Origin: Prevotella sp.
GTDB taxonomy: Bacteria; Bacteroidota; Bacteroidia; Bacteroidales; Bacteroidaceae
DNA length: 41,742 nt
Reading direction: 5' to 3'
Assembly: GCA_017554385.1 (NCBI GenBank)
Contig: JAFZIL010000098.1
Coordinates: 1 to 41,742 of the forward strand
Part shown: piece by piece, positions 33,945 through 41,742 of the stretch
Position numbering within the stretch: position 1 is the first letter of the stretch
How the letters are laid out: each line of letters opens with the position of its first letter
Program-made: the position numbers and the translations under genes
Notes under the pieces: generated by a model
Database searches by the model: none
What the model saw: only the letters and a program-made list of their open reading frames with translations
Told to the model about the DNA's origin: nothing

Positions 33945-34715
33945 CTATACAAATTTGACGATGCAATCGATACAGATGGGCTTTTCTGTCACGGTGTCAA
34001 TGAAAACGTTGGCAGGATGCATATCTTCCAATGCAATACGTTCAGAAATGTAGTTTACACCTTGACCGTTCCAGTTGTCTTGAAACCCCTTTGCAAGAAC
34101 CATATCGTCAATTTCCTCCTTTGTTGCCAATCGCAGACAGTTTATATATGGCTGCGTCAATACTATTCGCATAAGTCCGTCGCTATCACGAGTAAAACCT
34201 ATCACTTTCATGGCAGTTTCTGGAAAGAGGTAGTTATGCAACGCAATGGCATCAAGAGCCTTCTGTGTAGTAGAATAGATGGAAGCTCGTTCTTTTACTA
34301 CCGATGTGCTCCCTTCTTTATAATAGACCTTTGCCTCCGCACCCTGAGCTATCATTGGGCCAAACTCCCCAATGAGAATCTGCTCAGAGTCATCTTCCCA
34401 CAAATTGGCAGCCTTGGCCCATTGCTCTATCAGTTGCTCTTGCAGTTCGTCTATTTCCCAGTTTGCTGGGCTTCCCGTGCGGCCTTCAGCATGGCGACTT
34501 GCTGTAAGGCTTGCTGTCGCGTGGCATGCGATGATGGACGCCCCAATGAGAGGCGCACCTCCCTTGCTGAATCCTGCATGCTCTGGTAGATTGAATCTAG
34601 GAAAATCTTCTGTCCCATTCCTTATGTCGTTTACATATTTGTCTATCAGCAGAAGTGTTGACTCACTGAACCCATCAGCACTTATTGCCTCAAATATTCC
34701 ATTCAGTTTATCCAT
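33945..34715 (-). CDS. Polyvalent-protein-type kinase-like protein
   Basis: A 256-aa protein resembling the kinase domain found in polyvalent proteins of phages and conjugative elements (Kinase-PolyVal). Visible are a Gly-rich/Lys region (GPMIAQGAEAKVYYKEGSTSVVKERA), a catalytic-loop-like EDMHPANV (Asp, four residues, Asn) and a metal-site-like ICIDCIV. The N-terminal 100 residues (GAPLIGASIIACHATA) are of unknown fold. It is stand-alone here, although the domain usually occurs in very large proteins, suggesting mobile-element origin. Substrate is unknown. Confidence 0.6.
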   Translation of the reverse strand: MDKLNGIFEAISADGFSESTLLLIDKYVNDIRNGTEDFPRFNLPEHAGFSKGGAPLIGASIIACHATASLTASRHAEGRTGSPANWEIDELQEQLIEQWAKAANLWEDDSEQILIGEFGPMIAQGAEAKVYYKEGSTSVVKERASIYSTTQKALDAIALHNYLFPETAMKVIGFTRDSDGLMRIVLTQPYINCLRLATKEEIDDMVLAKGFQDNWNGQGVNYISERIALEDMHPANVFIDTVTEKPICIDCIVKFV

Positions 34716-34797: not shown

Positions 34798-35310
34798 TTA
34801 GAAGTGGAAGACGATTTTCCAAGCGGTCTTTCCTTGTTGGTTGATGCCAGTCCTGAAGGTAATCTTTGTGACCGGCTTTACGAGAGAATTTCCATCACAG
34901 ACCAACTTGATGGAGGCGATATCCTTGGCAGTATATGGGCAATAATCATTGGAGAGTTTGATTCTTCCATTTTCTGTGACCAGAACTTCCTTGGCGAATT
35001 CTTCATCGTCAAGATAGCGCTTAAAGGTTGTTTTCTCTCCACTCCTAATCCTTTCTATTGTTTCCTTACCGACTATCATGGTCAGCATGTTGTCCTTTGG
35101 ATCCGGTTTCTGTTCAACAGGTTTCTGCCTTTGCCTCGCTGGTTGGGGCTTTTCAGGTTGAGGCTCAGAATTACTCTCATCTCCTAACTCATCACCCATG
35201 CGGTATTTTATGTCGTAGTTAATGATGAAGTCGAGCTCTTCTTCCGTAAAGCCGTAATGCTTAGCAAGGACTTTGTCTATCTCGTCAATGATGGATTTTG
35301 AGAGTTTCAT
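34798..35310 (-). CDS. Orphan adenine-methyltransferase C-terminal tail fused to an unknown domain
   Basis: A 170-aa protein. Its first 40 residues (IIDEIDKVLAKHYGF, then TEEELDFIINYDIKYRMG) match the extreme C-terminus of large Eco57I/PglX-type N6-adenine methyltransferases, as I recall them, yet no methyltransferase body lies upstream. A charged Pro/Gln linker (about residues 46-73) leads to a roughly 95-residue domain (MLTMIVGKETIERIRSGEKTT to KIVFHF) that I do not recognise; its opening faintly recalls ASCH-type folds. It may be a recruited tail module or the relic of a deleted restriction or BREX locus. Confidence 0.5.
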   Translation of the reverse strand: MKLSKSIIDEIDKVLAKHYGFTEEELDFIINYDIKYRMGDELGDESNSEPQPEKPQPARQRQKPVEQKPDPKDNMLTMIVGKETIERIRSGEKTTFKRYLDDEEFAKEVLVTENGRIKLSNDYCPYTAKDIASIKLVCDGNSLVKPVTKITFRTGINQQGKTAWKIVFHF

Positions 35311-36143: not shown

Positions 36144-36488
36144 ATGAGTATGGACTACGACGGCAGATTTATCATGCAAAAGACAGTGGACTGGTCGCTA
36201 TTGCGCTCGACCTCTGGTCGCTTGCTACCAACGGGACGCAAGAACGACGGGATGACCATTCCTGTGTCGGCATGTGCGCTGCTGAAGGCTTGGGACGAGT
36301 CCATTTTAACTCATGGGGCGGGCAAAGATATCAAGGTGCTGATTGATGGCGAGCTCTATGATGCCAAGCTGAAGAACCAAAACTTTGAACAGAGTAACTG
36401 GGCAGGCCATAAAGACGAGATTCAAATCCGCTATGAGCGGCAGTCGGCATTGGCTGTATATTTGAGAGCTCTAGTAGTGCATATCTAA
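36144..36488 (+). CDS. Small protein interrupted by the double-hairpin element
   Basis: A 114-aa protein not firmly recognised. DIKVLIDGELYDAKLKNQNF and KDEIQIRYERQSALAVYL recall a small beta-rich module found at the N-terminus of some HNH/restriction endonucleases, but no nuclease motif follows, so it may be a truncated or stand-alone version. Residues 20-33 (LRSTSGRLLPTGRK) come from copy B of the double-hairpin element; without it MQKTVDWSLL would run straight into NDGMTIPVS. Its composition is closer to the core chromosome than to the downstream genes. It ends 18 nt before the helicase and probably shares its transcript. Confidence 0.6.
   Translation: MSMDYDGRFIMQKTVDWSLLRSTSGRLLPTGRKNDGMTIPVSACALLKAWDESILTHGAGKDIKVLIDGELYDAKLKNQNFEQSNWAGHKDEIQIRYERQSALAVYLRALVVHI
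36204..36244. repeat. Double-hairpin intragenic element, copy B
   Basis: CGACC-TCT-GGTCG (36208-36220) adjoins CTTGC/GCAAG with an inner CC/GG pair around tetraloop AACG (36221-36242). It is identical to copy A at 35 of 41 positions and read in the same frame. Confidence 0.8.
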
Positions 36489-36506: not shown

Positions 36507-39500
36507 ATGGAAGAGTACAACAAGTTATTCGAAAACTTAAATGATAAGCAGATAGAGGCTGTGATGGCAACGGAGGGTAAAGTCCGAGTCATTGCAGGTG
36601 CCGGCTCTGGTAAGACACGTGTTCTAGCACATCGATTTGGCTACCTTGTGAACGAAATCGGCATCAGTCCTAGCAACATATTGTGTATGACCTTTACCAA
36701 CAAGGCAGCTCAGGAGATGCGCAACCGAATAGCAAAGATGGTGCATCAAGGACATGTGAACGACTTTGTTTGTACTATTCATGGTTTCTGCGTGAAAGTG
36801 CTTCGGCGAGACATATACCGCATGGGCTATCCTAAAAACTTTTTCATTCATGATGATGAAGATGCCAAGAATTTCGCCAAACAAGTAATGGAAGAATTCG
36901 AATTAGACTATACAAAAAAAACACGCAATAAATTCTTGGAGGATGTAAAGAAAGCTAAGGCTCTTTCTGGGCACCCTTATATTGAGAGATTGGTTTTGCC
37001 AACATCAAAGGAACTGAGCCAAGAAGACACTAAGCCAATTGATCGCTATATACAATTACAAATTAACAATTTCGCTCTCGATTATCAGGATATCCAATAC
37101 TTCGCTCTTTATCTATTAAACACATACGAAGATATACGCTCATACTGGCAGGACAAACTGAATTATGTCATGGTGGATGAGGTACAAGATTGTAGTAAAT
37201 CTGATTGGGAACTAATCAACATAATCAGCGAGAAATATAACAATCTATTCATCGTTGGAGACCCCGACCAAGCAATTTATGAATGGCGAGGAGCACTTCC
37301 AAAGTATCTTGTGGATTATGAAGCAGATAAAGACATCATTCTCGCTGAGAATTATCGTTCGACACCCAATATTCTCGATGTCGCAAACTCTATTATCGAC
37401 AACAATGAAGAACGTGTAAAGAAAAACTTGTTTACTAAGAAGCCAACAAGTAAAAATGCTCTTTATTATCACGGAAAGACGGAAGAAGATGAGGCCATGT
37501 GGATTGCCAATAGGATATGCGAACTTAATAAATGTGGTGTAAAATATAACGAAATCGCCATTTTGTACAGAGCTTCGTTTCTTTCTCGTAACATTGAACA
37601 AGCTCTTATCAGAAAGCAAGTTAAATATACGGTATGGGGTGGCACAAGGTTCTTTGAACGTAAGGAAATCAAAGACGCTTTAGCATATCTTCGGTTAGTG
37701 GTTAATAGGGATGATTTATCTTTTCAGCGTATTGTGAATGTACCGTCAAGGAGGTTTGGCAGTAAATCAATGAACTTGCTGAAAGAACTATCAGAGCAAG
37801 AGGGAACGAGTCTTTATCAAACATTGTTCACCCATAAACAAGATAAGCAGTTCGACAAAGAGTCAATACATGACTTTTTAAATTTGATTGAACAATGTGA
37901 AAAGAAACAAAGCAATAATAGTATTTCCGAATTATTTGACTATTTGCTTAAAAATAGTGGACTATGGGAAATGTTCCGCGAAGAAGGAGATGAAGACAGA
38001 TTAGACAACATAAATGAACTCATTAATTCCATTCGTCTATATGAAAGTGTAGAAAGAGAGGAAAAAGCAACTATAGAAACGTATCTTCAAGATGTAGCTT
38101 TGTTCACTAATGCAGATTACAAAGATGATGGTGAAACCGTAAAACTAATGACTATACATCAGGCAAAAGGTCTTGAGTTCCCGTTTGTTTTTGTATGTGG
38201 GTTAAACGAAATGATTTTCCCAAGTATCAGAACAATTCGAGAAAGTGGGATAAGGGGACTTGAAGAAGAACGTAGATTAATGTATGTCGCAGTTACTAGA
38301 GCTGAACGAGCATTATTTCTTACCGAATCTGAAGGGTTTTCTTATAGTCTGTGTTCTGAAAAAATACCTTCTCGTTTTATCATTGAAATTAAAGAAAACC
38401 TTCTTGAAATAGAAGGAGATTATGATGCTTCTCTTTTCAATGTTACAAAAGAATTTGTTAAAAACGGATTTTACAGGAAGGATTATAATTCTACATATGT
38501 AACAAAATTCAAAGAAGGTGACTGCGTAATACATAAGACATTTGGTACTGGAGTTATCGAGTCATGCGAACCAAAAGAAAACGGGAGTGTATTTCGTGTA
38601 CGTTTTTCTATAGGTATTCGGTATTTAAGAGTTGAAAACTTAATTCAAATGACAGAAGGGCCAGAAAGGTGGATGGAAGAGTATCACATATACCAACTTT
38701 TAAGTACAAAGATTAAAGACTTGAACCTATCTACTAGGACGTTGAATGTGTTTATGAAATTAAATATAGTAACTATTAAGGATTTGGTGAAACACTCAAG
38801 GGAAGAACTTAAAGAAATACGTGGGTTCGGAAAAACGTGCTTGCAAGAAGTCGAAGATGAACTTGAATTTTTAAACTTACATTTAGGTTATGATGTTGAC
38901 CCTATTATTGGTAAATACGATATTTATAGGCAATACATAAGAGAAAGAAGTAAGACGTTAGTTCCTATTCTGAGAACTCCACTGATAGAAACAAGAATCC
39001 AAAACACTGATTACTATGAAACACTAATTAAAAATGACATAATGACTATTGGTGATTTGATGGTAAAAATTCAATATCATTCGATAAAGGAAAAACTACA
39101 TCCCAATGAAATTGAGGATGTGTTGTCTTTCTTTTGTGAGAAAGGTATTGACTTCTTTGATCCCGAACCCTATTATGATGAATATGATTACATGCAATCA
39201 TTAAATTGCGAAATACAAGGAACAGGAACGATTGAAGAAACTGCAAAAAACGATGGGGAACAACTATTATTGGCTCAAAAAGCCGAGCCCCAAAAAGATA
39301 TGCAGTTAAAAAATAATGATAATAAAAAAAATGTAAATAATGAAGTACCTATGAAAAGTCAAGAGTCAAATGTATTAAATGTTTCTGAGATTTCAGAAAT
39401 AATGAAAAAAGCGAGATCGGGTAATGCAGATGCGATATTATATTGTGCGCAGCATAAGATAAATCCTTTTAACTTTGATGAAGATTTCTTCTTTAATTAT

Positions 39501-40097
39501 GATGATGTTAGAATTGGAGATTGGTTTTATGATGATGGCAGCTTTTCAAGAAGTAGATCTGATTTGAAAAAATGTGTTGGAGTAGTCTTTTCGTTGGAAA
39601 CATCTCAATTAGAACAGGCTGACGGATGGACTCATGGTCTTATTGTGGCTATTAAGGATGCAGCTCAAGCAGAATGGGAGTTAGTATATGAAGATTTGGT
39701 ATATCCACATACTCATTATAGTGCGAAGGAATTGGAATTATTAAAAGAGTCTCCTACTTCTTTTAACGATTATCATACAGAATTCCTATTAAGGGACTCA
39801 AAAATTAATGCTTTCAGAATAGCGAGGAAATTTAAAGTTGGCTTACCTAAAGGAATAACCAGTGGATGGTTTTTGCCGAGTATTAGTCAACTTCGGCAAA
39901 TAGCATGCAATTTGCTTCCTGATACTTTAAGTAAAATATCAATGAATTGTGGAGAGGTGTATTGGTCTTCTTCCCAGTCTAATGCCAATGAGGCTTGTTA
40001 TGTGTTTATCTCTAATGGTGAAAATACATTTTTTAGTTTTGGCGTCAATAATAAAAAGTCTCCATTTCCTTATATTCGACCGATATTAGCATTTTGA
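36507..40097 (+). CDS. UvrD-type helicase with RpoA-CTD-like and DUF1566-like C-terminal domains
   Basis: A 1196-aa superfamily 1A helicase with a complete motor: Walker A AGAGSGKT (30-37), TFTNKAAQEM, DEVQD (224-228), GDPDQAIYEWRG, ENYRST, MTIHQAKGLEFP (549-559) and VAVTRAER. A UvrD/PcrA-type beta domain follows (FKEGDCVIHKTFGTGVI, 668-684). Residues about 735-795 match the RNA polymerase alpha C-terminal domain (LSTRTLNVFMKLNIVTIKDLV, IRGFGKTCLQEVEDEL); 815-885 look like a weaker second copy. After a polar linker and a short Sel1-like segment (965-983), residues 985-1196 resemble DUF1566/Lcl_C lectin-like domains (SGWFLPSISQLRQI, YWSSSQSNANEACYV, YIRPILAF). That combination is unusual. Codon use is AT-rich; a defence or genome-conflict role is inferred. 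Confidence 0.85.
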   Translation: MEEYNKLFENLNDKQIEAVMATEGKVRVIAGAGSGKTRVLAHRFGYLVNEIGISPSNILCMTFTNKAAQEMRNRIAKMVHQGHVNDFVCTIHGFCVKVLRRDIYRMGYPKNFFIHDDEDAKNFAKQVMEEFELDYTKKTRNKFLEDVKKAKALSGHPYIERLVLPTSKELSQEDTKPIDRYIQLQINNFALDYQDIQYFALYLLNTYEDIRSYWQDKLNYVMVDEVQDCSKSDWELINIISEKYNNLFIVGDPDQAIYEWRGALPKYLVDYEADKDIILAENYRSTPNILDVANSIIDNNEERVKKNLFTKKPTSKNALYYHGKTEEDEAMWIANRICELNKCGVKYNEIAILYRASFLSRNIEQALIRKQVKYTVWGGTRFFERKEIKDALAYLRLVVNRDDLSFQRIVNVPSRRFGSKSMNLLKELSEQEGTSLYQTLFTHKQDKQFDKESIHDFLNLIEQCEKKQSNNSISELFDYLLKNSGLWEMFREEGDEDRLDNINELINSIRLYESVEREEKATIETYLQDVALFTNADYKDDGETVKLMTIHQAKGLEFPFVFVCGLNEMIFPSIRTIRESGIRGLEEERRLMYVAVTRAERALFLTESEGFSYSLCSEKIPSRFIIEIKENLLEIEGDYDASLFNVTKEFVKNGFYRKDYNSTYVTKFKEGDCVIHKTFGTGVIESCEPKENGSVFRVRFSIGIRYLRVENLIQMTEGPERWMEEYHIYQLLSTKIKDLNLSTRTLNVFMKLNIVTIKDLVKHSREELKEIRGFGKTCLQEVEDELEFLNLHLGYDVDPIIGKYDIYRQYIRERSKTLVPILRTPLIETRIQNTDYYETLIKNDIMTIGDLMVKIQYHSIKEKLHPNEIEDVLSFFCEKGIDFFDPEPYYDEYDYMQSLNCEIQGTGTIEETAKNDGEQLLLAQKAEPQKDMQLKNNDNKKNVNNEVPMKSQESNVLNVSEISEIMKKARSGNADAILYCAQHKINPFNFDEDFFFNYDDVRIGDWFYDDGSFSRSRSDLKKCVGVVFSLETSQLEQADGWTHGLIVAIKDAAQAEWELVYEDLVYPHTHYSAKELELLKESPTSFNDYHTEFLLRDSKINAFRIARKFKVGLPKGITSGWFLPSISQLRQIACNLLPDTLSKISMNCGEVYWSSSQSNANEACYVFISNGENTFFSFGVNNKKSPFPYIRPILAF

Positions 40098-40103
40098 TTA
40101 TGT

Positions 40104-40298
40104 ATGGAAAATAAGTCAGTACCATCTTGTAAGGACATTTTTGACAAACTTGTTTTGCCGGAATGGCTTAACAAGAAAGATACATCATTGGGGTTTCTTC
40201 AAAATGACAAGGGAGATAGAAACCATTTAATTGAAACTTATAGGTGTTTCCAGAGCCTATACGATGTCCCACTGTTTTCGAATGGGAAAAAACATTAA
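40104..40298 (+). CDS. Small hypothetical protein after the helicase
   Basis: A 64-aa frame starting 6 nt after the helicase stop. It has no recognisable motif, signal peptide or membrane segment (CKDIFDKLVLPEWL and RNHLIETYRCFQSLYD are mildly amphipathic). Tight spacing and AT-rich codon use like its neighbours argue that it is translated; it could also be a fragment of a longer gene. Confidence 0.4.
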   Translation: MENKSVPSCKDIFDKLVLPEWLNKKDTSLGFLQNDKGDRNHLIETYRCFQSLYDVPLFSNGKKH

Positions 40299-40325: not shown

Positions 40326-40937
40326 ATGGCTGATTTATTCACATTGTCCGTTTCCAACAAAGAAAAAGATTTCGTAAAGTCAGGAAGGGAAATAGACTTA
40401 GAGTTGTCCGCAGATGTTATAGAAACATTTGTAGAAATTCCCTATATTGCTTCTCTCATCAAGTTGGGGCGACTTGCTAATAGATATCAAGACCTTCATT
40501 TTATACGGAAGCTGGCAAAGTTCTTGGAAAAAGGCAAGGATATTTCTGAAAAGGAGAAAGAAAACTTCTTAAATAGTTTAACTCCGAAACGGCGGAAGAT
40601 ACTATATGAGCATTTGACACATTATCTTCTCCGTGCAGAGGATGATGCCAAGGCTGATATTATGGGATATATCTATAAAGAGCGAGTTTTGGGTCGTATT
40701 GACGATGAGATGTTTTTGCGGCTATGCTCAATTGTAGATAGAGCGTTTGTCTTTGATTTAAGAGCTTTGCCTGAATACGTAGAGGAGAACACAGAGGACT
40801 CAGTAGAAGCCAACAACTATATGATTGACAATTTTGTCGGTGGCTATTGGAAAGATGGACTGTCTTATATGTTAAATGAGATAGGTCAAACTTTGCATCG
40901 AATATTAGATACAAATGAATGGTATAAAAATGCATAA
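40326..40937 (+). CDS. Uncharacterised 203-aa helical protein
   Basis: A 203-aa mostly helical protein. It begins with polar residues and ADVIETFVEIPYIASLIKLGRLANRYQD, continues with LHFIRKLAKFLEKGKDISEKEKENFL, and ends with FLRLCSIVDRAFVFDLRALPEY and a short tail. I recall similar proteins of unknown function in mobile regions of Bacteroides and others, with the same hydrophobic segment followed by a charged Lys/Glu helix and a late DxR-L motif, but I cannot name the family. It starts 27 nt after the 64-aa frame and precedes the nuclease gene by 66 nt. Confidence 0.65.
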   Translation: MADLFTLSVSNKEKDFVKSGREIDLELSADVIETFVEIPYIASLIKLGRLANRYQDLHFIRKLAKFLEKGKDISEKEKENFLNSLTPKRRKILYEHLTHYLLRAEDDAKADIMGYIYKERVLGRIDDEMFLRLCSIVDRAFVFDLRALPEYVEENTEDSVEANNYMIDNFVGGYWKDGLSYMLNEIGQTLHRILDTNEWYKNA

Positions 40938-41003: not shown

Positions 41004-41742
41004 ATGAACATCCAATCAACTTTACACGGGTACAGAGTACAGTTCCTATATACCTTACATAGGATGATGCTTTCTGAAAATCTTCAGGAAGTTTTTGTGC
41101 CTGAGGGTAAGGAAGATTTGGATGTTTATGTTGATGGTGTCTTGAAGGAGTGTATTCAAGTGAAATGTCATGCAGGGACTTTGACGTATAGAGATTTATA
41201 TTCGACAGGAAGAAAGACATCATTATATGGAAGGGCAGTCGGTTCTCTTAGTGAGACCCCAGATGTAAAGATAAGAATTGTCTCCGTCAACGGGAAAATA
41301 AGTGACGAACTTACAGATAAAGCAAAACTGAAACGGAAACTGAAAGGGGATGCTGAACTGAAACTAAAAGAGCATGAAGCGAAGAAGCTTGCAAACATTA
41401 TTGATGCTACTGTTTTTGATGAACAGGAAATGCTCTCTGCGGTTTCTTTGGAGTTGAAATCAAGGTTTACAGAGATTGATGCGGTTTTAGGCATAAGACT
41501 ATTGACGCAATGGATTTATGAGGCTGCAGAACACGGAGAACGTCTAACAACAGAAAACTTGGAGCAAGTGATTCGGGCCATTGGTGTTTTCCAGTCTCAA
41601 ATGCAAGCATTCCATCATCAACTTGGTTATGCTATTGTTCCGCTATTCACGGAAAACGGCTTGGCTGGTTATGATGAGCAAGCCTTGTCGAATGAATTTT
41701 ATGATGGTGTTTCTGCAAAACCGGAACATATTATGGCCGGAC
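41004..41742 (+). CDS. PD-(D/E)xK nuclease-domain protein, probably STAND NTPase (partial)
   Basis: The first 246 residues of a protein that runs off the window. GYRVQFLYTLHRMM and EGKEDLDVYVDGVLKECIQVK form a restriction-like nuclease core (Glu-Asp-Leu-Asp, then QxK) as in Cap4/DUF4297-type dsDNA endonucleases. A helical region follows, ending NEFYDGVSAKPEHIMAG, which in my memory of Bacteroidetes homologues precedes a P-loop STAND NTPase; the P-loop itself lies outside. Such nuclease-STAND proteins (Avs-like) are anti-phage sensors. The start at 41004 is fixed by an in-frame stop 9 nt upstream. Confidence 0.7.
   Translation, partial: MNIQSTLHGYRVQFLYTLHRMMLSENLQEVFVPEGKEDLDVYVDGVLKECIQVKCHAGTLTYRDLYSTGRKTSLYGRAVGSLSETPDVKIRIVSVNGKISDELTDKAKLKRKLKGDAELKLKEHEAKKLANIIDATVFDEQEMLSAVSLELKSRFTEIDAVLGIRLLTQWIYEAAEHGERLTTENLEQVIRAIGVFQSQMQAFHHQLGYAIVPLFTENGLAGYDEQALSNEFYDGVSAKPEHIMAG

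Follow-up and report, generated by a model that had tools for sequence, protein, structure and literature searches.

We describe a gene for a chimeric helicase in the genome of a Prevotella species. It lies on a stretch of 41,742 nucleotides (the window) that makes up the entire contig JAFZIL010000098.1 (C98) of a 98-contig, 3.06-Mb assembly with a completeness of 81%. The open reading frame (ORF), at 36507..40097 on the plus strand, starts with ATG and encodes 1196 amino acids (aa) in a frame without an internal stop. Judged by alignment and profile comparison, the product joins a UvrD-type motor to a degenerate Tudor-like domain, a domain resembling the C-terminal domain (CTD) of the RNA polymerase alpha subunit and a lectin-type domain, and the fusion takes in the end of a lectin gene together with the start of its partner gene. 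As far as sequences can tell, this architecture is real; in the searches made it was found complete once and partial once more, and the chimera is a novel form of UvrD-type accessory helicase. None of the titles and abstracts that we searched in one paper collection describes it. The protein is most likely an island-borne helicase, docked on RNA polymerase or DNA and equipped with an acquired recognition tail, a function that we infer.

The motor and the domains behind it

Residues 1-608 (36507..38330, plus strand) were assigned to an SF1A motor of the PcrA/UvrD type from Pfam, TIGR01073 and motifs. Pfam places UvrD-helicase at residues 11-273 (E=3.7e-66) and UvrD_C at 277-608 (E=4e-71), and the motifs GAGSGKT, DEVQD, GDPDQAIYEWRGA and VAVTRAE, read from the sequence, are all present, which bears out the complete motor that a sequence-only reading of the window had proposed. 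Against the PcrA equivalog model TIGR01073, the protein scores 584 bits, below the cut-off of 911. This genome has its ordinary PcrA elsewhere: contig C47 carries a PcrA-type gene of 800 aa with a motor 33% identical to that of the chimera, and in a motor tree the chimera's family and PcrA are split with full support. By identity and tree position, the chimera is an extra helicase from a second UvrD family and not the ordinary PcrA of the genome.

A degenerate Tudor-like domain of the PcrA Tudor or CarD-TRCF-RID type appears to follow at about residues 668-718 (38508..38660, plus strand); the earlier reading had overlooked it, as well as a module in front of the lectin domain and the gene fragments on either side of the helicase. 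Its direct matches are to CarD_TRCF_RID (E=0.014) and PcrA_UvrD_tudor (E=0.22). At the equivalent position, one relative (L083) matches CarD_TRCF_RID over the cut-off (E=4e-6) and another (L075) matches PcrA_UvrD_tudor under it (E=6e-4), and the Tudor-like columns of the window protein and its relatives align.

The RpoA-type domain (CTD1) spans residues 721-798 (38667..38900, plus strand) and is recognised through PF03118 and through RpoA matches in PDB. RNA_pol_A_CTD PF03118 matches residues 728-787 with E=1.1e-15 and 57.5 bits, over a gathering cut-off of 23.8, so that the RpoA-CTD-like segment previously placed at 735-795 is upheld. With a C-terminal query, matches were obtained in 140 out of 151 genomes of the family, counting that of the window, and among the matches listed most were RpoA-sized frames with about 36-45% identity across the CTD part. 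In phage and plasmid records the matches of the tail were confined to CTD1 and came from one unannotated phage record and three plasmid records, of which two carry an RpoA annotation and the third has none.

The proposal of a weaker second RpoA-CTD copy was not confirmed. The segment in question, residues 813-885 (38943..39161, plus strand), is helical and is conserved in L068, the nearest relative of the chimera, with 44 of 70 aligned residues identical, but it is not recognisable as an RpoA-CTD: a hidden Markov model of 29 RpoA CTDs scores residues 800-895 no better than shuffled sequences, a profile comparison of CTD1 with the second segment is weak (probability 51%), and phmmer against PDB finds no RpoA for it.

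A lectin-type end and its probable intracellular source

The C-terminal residues 1001-1196 (39507..40094, plus strand) are best assigned to a lectin-type (Lcl_C/DUF1566-like) domain, as the sequence-only reading had suggested, with the qualification that homology runs through intermediates. No direct Pfam match was obtained for residues 974-1196. This region is 38% identical (E=1.3e-25) to a lipoprotein of another genome (G003, locus L015), which in turn matches Lcl_C PF07603 at E=7e-7, under the Pfam cut-off; the lectin part also matches the C-termini of fimbrillin-like proteins. A profile of seven lectin sequences, the window's included, matches PDB 4eps at E=1.7e-6, and 27 columns are invariant in an alignment of five sequences, namely the window protein and four exported relatives.

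The lectin profile matched 46 of 200 genus genomes, the window's included, and for 30 of these the best locus was assessed for export with a crude signal rule and then by eye. The rule recognised an export signal in 21 proteins and inspection in five more; one sequence was cut and three, those of the window, L153 and L171, carry no signal. Ten further lectin regions, taken from frames of odd length or from the window's own genome, were judged exported by eye, except for an ambiguous one (L180). The view that this domain normally sits on secreted proteins is therefore right for most of its carriers and fails for L153 and L171, from two other genus genomes; the companion claim, that the helicase bears it on a protein without an export signal, stands.

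The L171 protein, laid out as a helical segment, a TPR region and a lectin domain, indicates where the tail may have come from. Residues 965-1196 of the window protein align with it at 32% identity (E=2e-29 in a pairwise comparison), including a pre-lectin module at residues 965-997 (39399..39497, plus strand) that both proteins share (42% identity in 33 residues; E=4e-6, again pairwise). The correspondence continues into the next gene: a 64-aa ORF (40104..40298, plus strand) begins 6 nucleotides past the helicase stop, and its first 55 aa are 53% identical to the N-terminus of a 258-aa partner gene that begins 5 nucleotides past the lectin gene in L171/L194; a whole-genome search with this partner recovered the 64-aa ORF at E=2e-12. 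Since the pre-lectin module, the lectin domain and the beginning of the following gene are collinear with L171/L194, the helicase appears to carry the end of an intracellular lectin-type two-gene unit.

Relatives of this unit are few. The partner matched in five of 301 family genomes, the window fragment included, and strongly only in G738 (E=1e-49), where no lectin gene was seen beside it; no match was found for the partner in plasmids or phages, or for the L171 lectin protein in plasmids. A profile of the two tails matched four of 344 order genomes (the window's, G005, G255 and G269), and the loci inspected in the last three (one of seven matches in G005) were by eye three exported proteins. 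In viral contigs, no relative was found with the helicase, the tail or the post-motor segment as query, nor with the C-terminal half of the lectin domain; the lectin profile matched one contig, which bears fimbria-like genes. An IMG/VR contig labelled viral (L148) has lectin-type ends on its fimbria-like genes and may be non-viral.

Some features of the intracellular lectin loci were noted in their own right. The L153 protein combines a zinc ribbon with the lectin domain in an operon with genes that by eye are Hsp70- and dynamin-like. At L195:4913-11347 (G722, contig 10), a zinc-ribbon-lectin protein without an export signal shares an operon with Hsp70-like, two dynamin-like and GrpE-like genes, all three types assigned by eye. 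Such an operon may encode an intracellular stress or conflict system. Close to a gene that by eye is channel-like, L194:3317-12997 (G610, contig 42) holds a group of three or more genes that seem to have an unnamed helical domain in common at their N-termini, and the TPR-lectin gene with its 258-aa partner is situated among them.

A lectin-type domain at the very C-terminus, ending in RPILAF, also brings to mind the variable region of a diversity-generating retroelement (DGR) target, rewritten by a reverse transcriptase; both domain type and position resemble such targets. The genome holds no second copy of 39850-40097, the other matches being of 14-34 bases at E=8, and RVT_1 matches occur only on contigs C7 and C62, where by eye they look like group II intron types. 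With neither a template repeat nor a DGR-like reverse transcriptase recognised in an 81%-complete assembly whose contig ends 1.6 kb downstream of the helicase, this explanation is not supported and we hold it to be very improbable.

A second UvrD family and the nearest relative

For the family search, the segment after motif VI (from the window and a relative in G661) was compared with 84,980 species, and the best 80 of 96 relatives were kept; the motor tree comprises three PcrAs, the window and those 72 loci, of the 80, that were long enough. Where most of the motor could be aligned, the motors of family loci are 46-88% identical to that of the window, as against 33% for the genome's own PcrA. 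The relatives form a second UvrD family, mostly of Bacteroidales and apart from PcrA, with the window inside it. The window pairs with L068 (support 100) within a clade of 15 (SH-aLRT 98), several members of which have long branches and an unsure placement.

Tails are concentrated in this clade. Counting as long a tail of at least 90 residues past the aligned segment, and taking all 81 members (80 loci and the window), we found long tails in 7 of 15 proteins in the window's clade versus 1 of 66 elsewhere (Fisher p=1.3e-5, uncorrected for kinship). The long-tailed clade members are the window, L068, L069, L075, L083, L086 and L098, and the only one outside is L129, which has an HRDC domain. In the added tails, Pfam finds a PcrA-type Tudor in L083 and L069, and gives no clear assignment for L075, L086 and L098. 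Only L068 among the 80 loci has the RpoA-type tail, and there it is followed by a short lectin stub, so that the survey of homologues proposed earlier returned a partial version of the architecture, in one case. A query with the tail region over 393 order genomes (E<=1e-14) revealed no other case, its three non-window matches being RpoA-sized frames over the CTD part. The whole protein, searched against 200 genus genomes at E<=1e-110, yielded three others: two that group with PcrA, and the G661 protein, a family member without a long tail whose gene runs off the contig at its 5' side.

L068 is a gene of Prevotella sp. Tb.RUG.463 that encodes 916 aa and is 81% identical to the window at the DNA level across 2.6 kb. 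Protein identity is 88-89% in the motor and 59-63% in the Tudor part, CTD1 and the second segment. The dN/dS ratios between the two are about 0.07 for the motor, 0.32 for the Tudor part and 0.38 for CTD1, and purifying selection acts on all three; the second segment gives about 0.11, with a high dS (2.3). At its C-terminus L068 carries a stub, ..VRIGEWLYD.., that aligns with the lectin start of the window, VRIGDWFYD, with a score reached by none of 5000 shuffles, and no more lectin sequence was seen downstream. Because L068 has both the RpoA-type tail and the lectin stub, the fusion is probably older than the split between the two genes; the simplest reading of the alignment is a fusion common to both that was later truncated in L068. 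An assembly artefact was judged unlikely, because the RpoA-type tail is also present in L068 and the third-position GC of the window gene stays steady at 0.19-0.32 from residue 501.

These data also bear on whether the chimera is an accident, that is, whether recombination in a decaying island joined a helicase to the 3' end of a lectin gene and left the lectin tail without a selected role. Gene fragments flank the helicase on both sides (36144-36488 and 40104-40298), most of the lectin domain is gone in L068, and the intact form was found once among the genomes searched, all as an accident would have it. The 1196-codon frame is nevertheless open, the 27 lectin columns are common to all four exported relatives, and the L068 stub suggests a fusion older than the 81% DNA identity, which would have given an unused end sufficient time to decay. 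We regard an accidental origin as improbable, though deserving of serious consideration.

Genomic setting, proposed role and known systems

The GC content is 46-59% across the first 34 kb of the window and 33-44% from there to the contig end. The AT-rich stretch opens with a Kinase-PolyVal protein (33945..34715, minus strand; PF18762, E=2.5e-32). At 34798-35310 there is a 170-aa ORF in which residues 2-44 match a PADLOC model for type IIG restriction-methylases at its C-terminal end (E=1e-18). Upstream of the helicase, a 114-aa ORF (36144..36488, plus strand) is similar to the leading part of a 284-aa protein (42% over 102 aa; L193:2008-2859), a putative HNH nuclease judged by eye; it stops 18 nucleotides before the helicase, and the remainder of the protein is missing. 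Downstream of the 64-aa ORF lie a 203-aa protein (40326..40937, plus strand) with no Pfam match and with remote matches (23-31%) in 4 other genomes of 393, and the N-terminus of a Cap4/LmuA-like nuclease (41004..41742, plus strand; PF14130, E=3e-5, sub-cut-off; PADLOC LmuA, E=3e-11). The only relative of the latter to turn up in plasmid records, a protein of 1397 aa, has nSTAND matches, and the gene is probably the nuclease half of a nuclease-STAND protein. The island setting beside a nuclease-STAND gene that had been put forward is thus right as to the AT-rich stretch and the nuclease, and incomplete as to the STAND part, since the contig ends there.

Among the relatives, neighbours are shared by 2 of 91 pairs of the 14 clade loci compared versus 199 of 1128 pairs of 48 other loci (18 loci are in neither set), a contrast that is expected in part because the 48 loci are mutually closer kin and flank lengths differ. 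Ten neighbours of six relatives, picked by hand, were compared with PADLOC, and nine of these plus one other with Pfam, which does not amount to a survey. The matches include AIPR and a DEAD helicase (L111), DUF3584 (L124), AAA_14/DUF4143 (L082), NA37 (L092) and PIN (L129); PADLOC matches the DUF3584 protein to JetC at only E=1e-5 and gives nothing for 4 of its ten. In L068 a KAP NTPase gene stands 260 bp upstream of the helicase; L068, L111, L124 and L082 are close kin of the chimera. At L111:8416-13352, the helicase relative is followed by genes for AIPR and the DEAD helicase (matches to MzaE and C3a193 in PADLOC), possibly a three-gene defence unit. Behind the L068 helicase, at L068:8900-9400, frame-broken remnants resemble by eye a RhuM-family gene.

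Our preferred interpretation, held tentatively and at somewhat less than even chance, is that the chimera is an accessory, island-borne PcrA-type DNA translocase of the second UvrD family with an acquired recognition tail, serving conflict with mobile DNA, the purpose that we infer to be most likely. It draws on the domain matches, the presence of an extra copy beside the ordinary PcrA, the long tails and few shared neighbours of the clade, the genes beside its close kin, the tail and stub of L068, purifying selection and the collinearity with L171/L194. PcrA binds the transcription elongation complex via its Tudor domain and has been proposed to act as an R-loop surveillance helicase (PMC8318588). 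By analogy, the Tudor-like domain would dock the helicase on transcribing RNA polymerase and the RpoA-CTD mimic may supply extra contacts with DNA or activators; the lectin-type tail could bind a protein or small ligand from an invader or a partner system and so direct or license the motor, which would then strip or unwind whichever DNA, R-loop or transcription complex has been marked. The alpha CTD of RpoA itself touches DNA and activators. In a bolder version, which we consider doubtful, an immune helicase would use alpha-CTD mimicry to reach promoters or transcribing polymerase, and a swappable lectin tail, taken from an intracellular lectin cassette, would recognise invader proteins or modified DNA, tails being exchanged within a mobile UvrD family.

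A plainer explanation, somewhat less probable than the conflict-related translocase, is an accessory repair or R-loop helicase that acts PcrA-like on host DNA, with tail domains that only tune localisation or host partners and an island location that reflects horizontal transfer rather than defence. It agrees with the strongest constraint falling on the motor, with the lack of a long tail past the Tudor-like part in 73 of 80 loci, and with one 44-row branch that has more neighbours in common and may be vertically inherited; it sits less well with a host that already has its own PcrA and with a clade that is scattered over its hosts, varies in its tails and has several defence-like neighbours.

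Several observations weigh against a conflict-related translocase with a recognition tail. No known defence system was matched, the neighbours scanned are a hand-picked sample, and many family members, which consist of just a motor and a Tudor domain, may be repair helicases of the ordinary kind. The window's own Tudor match is weak, and in CTD1 the positions that we take to be the DNA-contact residues K298 and S299 (Escherichia coli numbering, our mapping) are changed. Just one genome carries an intact lectin tail, and in L068, the closest kin of the chimera, almost the whole of it has been lost, so the tail may be dispensable. In addition, a generic lectin profile does not single out the L068 stub (its score is reached by 155 of 5000 shuffles with the window in the profile and by 3898 of 5000 without it), nor do L171, L153 and L015 align with it significantly (541, 140 and 338 of 1000 shuffles); the stub is therefore identified solely by direct comparison with the window. 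If the tail is functional, a repair-type helicase would have been turned into a targeted effector by gaining transcription-machinery and lectin-type modules, and a Bacteroidales domain found mostly on exported proteins would have been placed inside the cell, where its ligands could be sought directly.

Among known systems, lectin-fold (FGS) modules occur in conflict proteins of VMAP-ternary systems, often with DGRs, and the chimera shares with these FGS/C-type-lectin effectors a lectin-type module within a proposed conflict protein; those effectors are part of vWA-containing systems, where FGS is nearly confined to cyanobacterial ones and often tied to a DGR, none of which was seen at the chimera (PMC7159879). 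GajB of Gabija and RTasHel have a UvrD-type motor in common with it (best GajB 311 bits and RTasHel 358 bits in PADLOC). Neither GajA nor a reverse transcriptase was found among the six neighbouring proteins scanned, the helicase included, on a contig that ends 1.6 kb downstream, and a Gabija or DRT helicase identity was rejected, the resemblance being confined to the motor. The Lcl_C/DUF1566 domain of Bacteroidales lipoproteins and fimbrillin-like proteins is alike in the 27 invariant columns and the 4eps profile match, and differs in that the chimera is fused to a helicase, lacks an export signal and has no direct Pfam match. With the TPR-lectin and partner genes of L171/L194, the window shares the pre-lectin module, the lectin domain and the start of the next gene in identical order; the two differ at 32% identity, with a helical segment and TPR in place of the helicase and only a partner fragment in the window. 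RpoA resembles the chimera over residues 728-787, where the host's own RpoA is 43% identical, and differs by its alpha N-terminal domain, absent from the chimera, and by RNFGKKSL where the chimera has RGFGKTCL. Another close counterpart is PcrA/UvrD (PDB 1pjr), which matches the motor over residues 6-688 (E=2e-125) and likewise has a Tudor-like domain behind it, whereas the chimera is an additional copy that scores 584 against 911 bits and extends into a tail of about 480 further residues.

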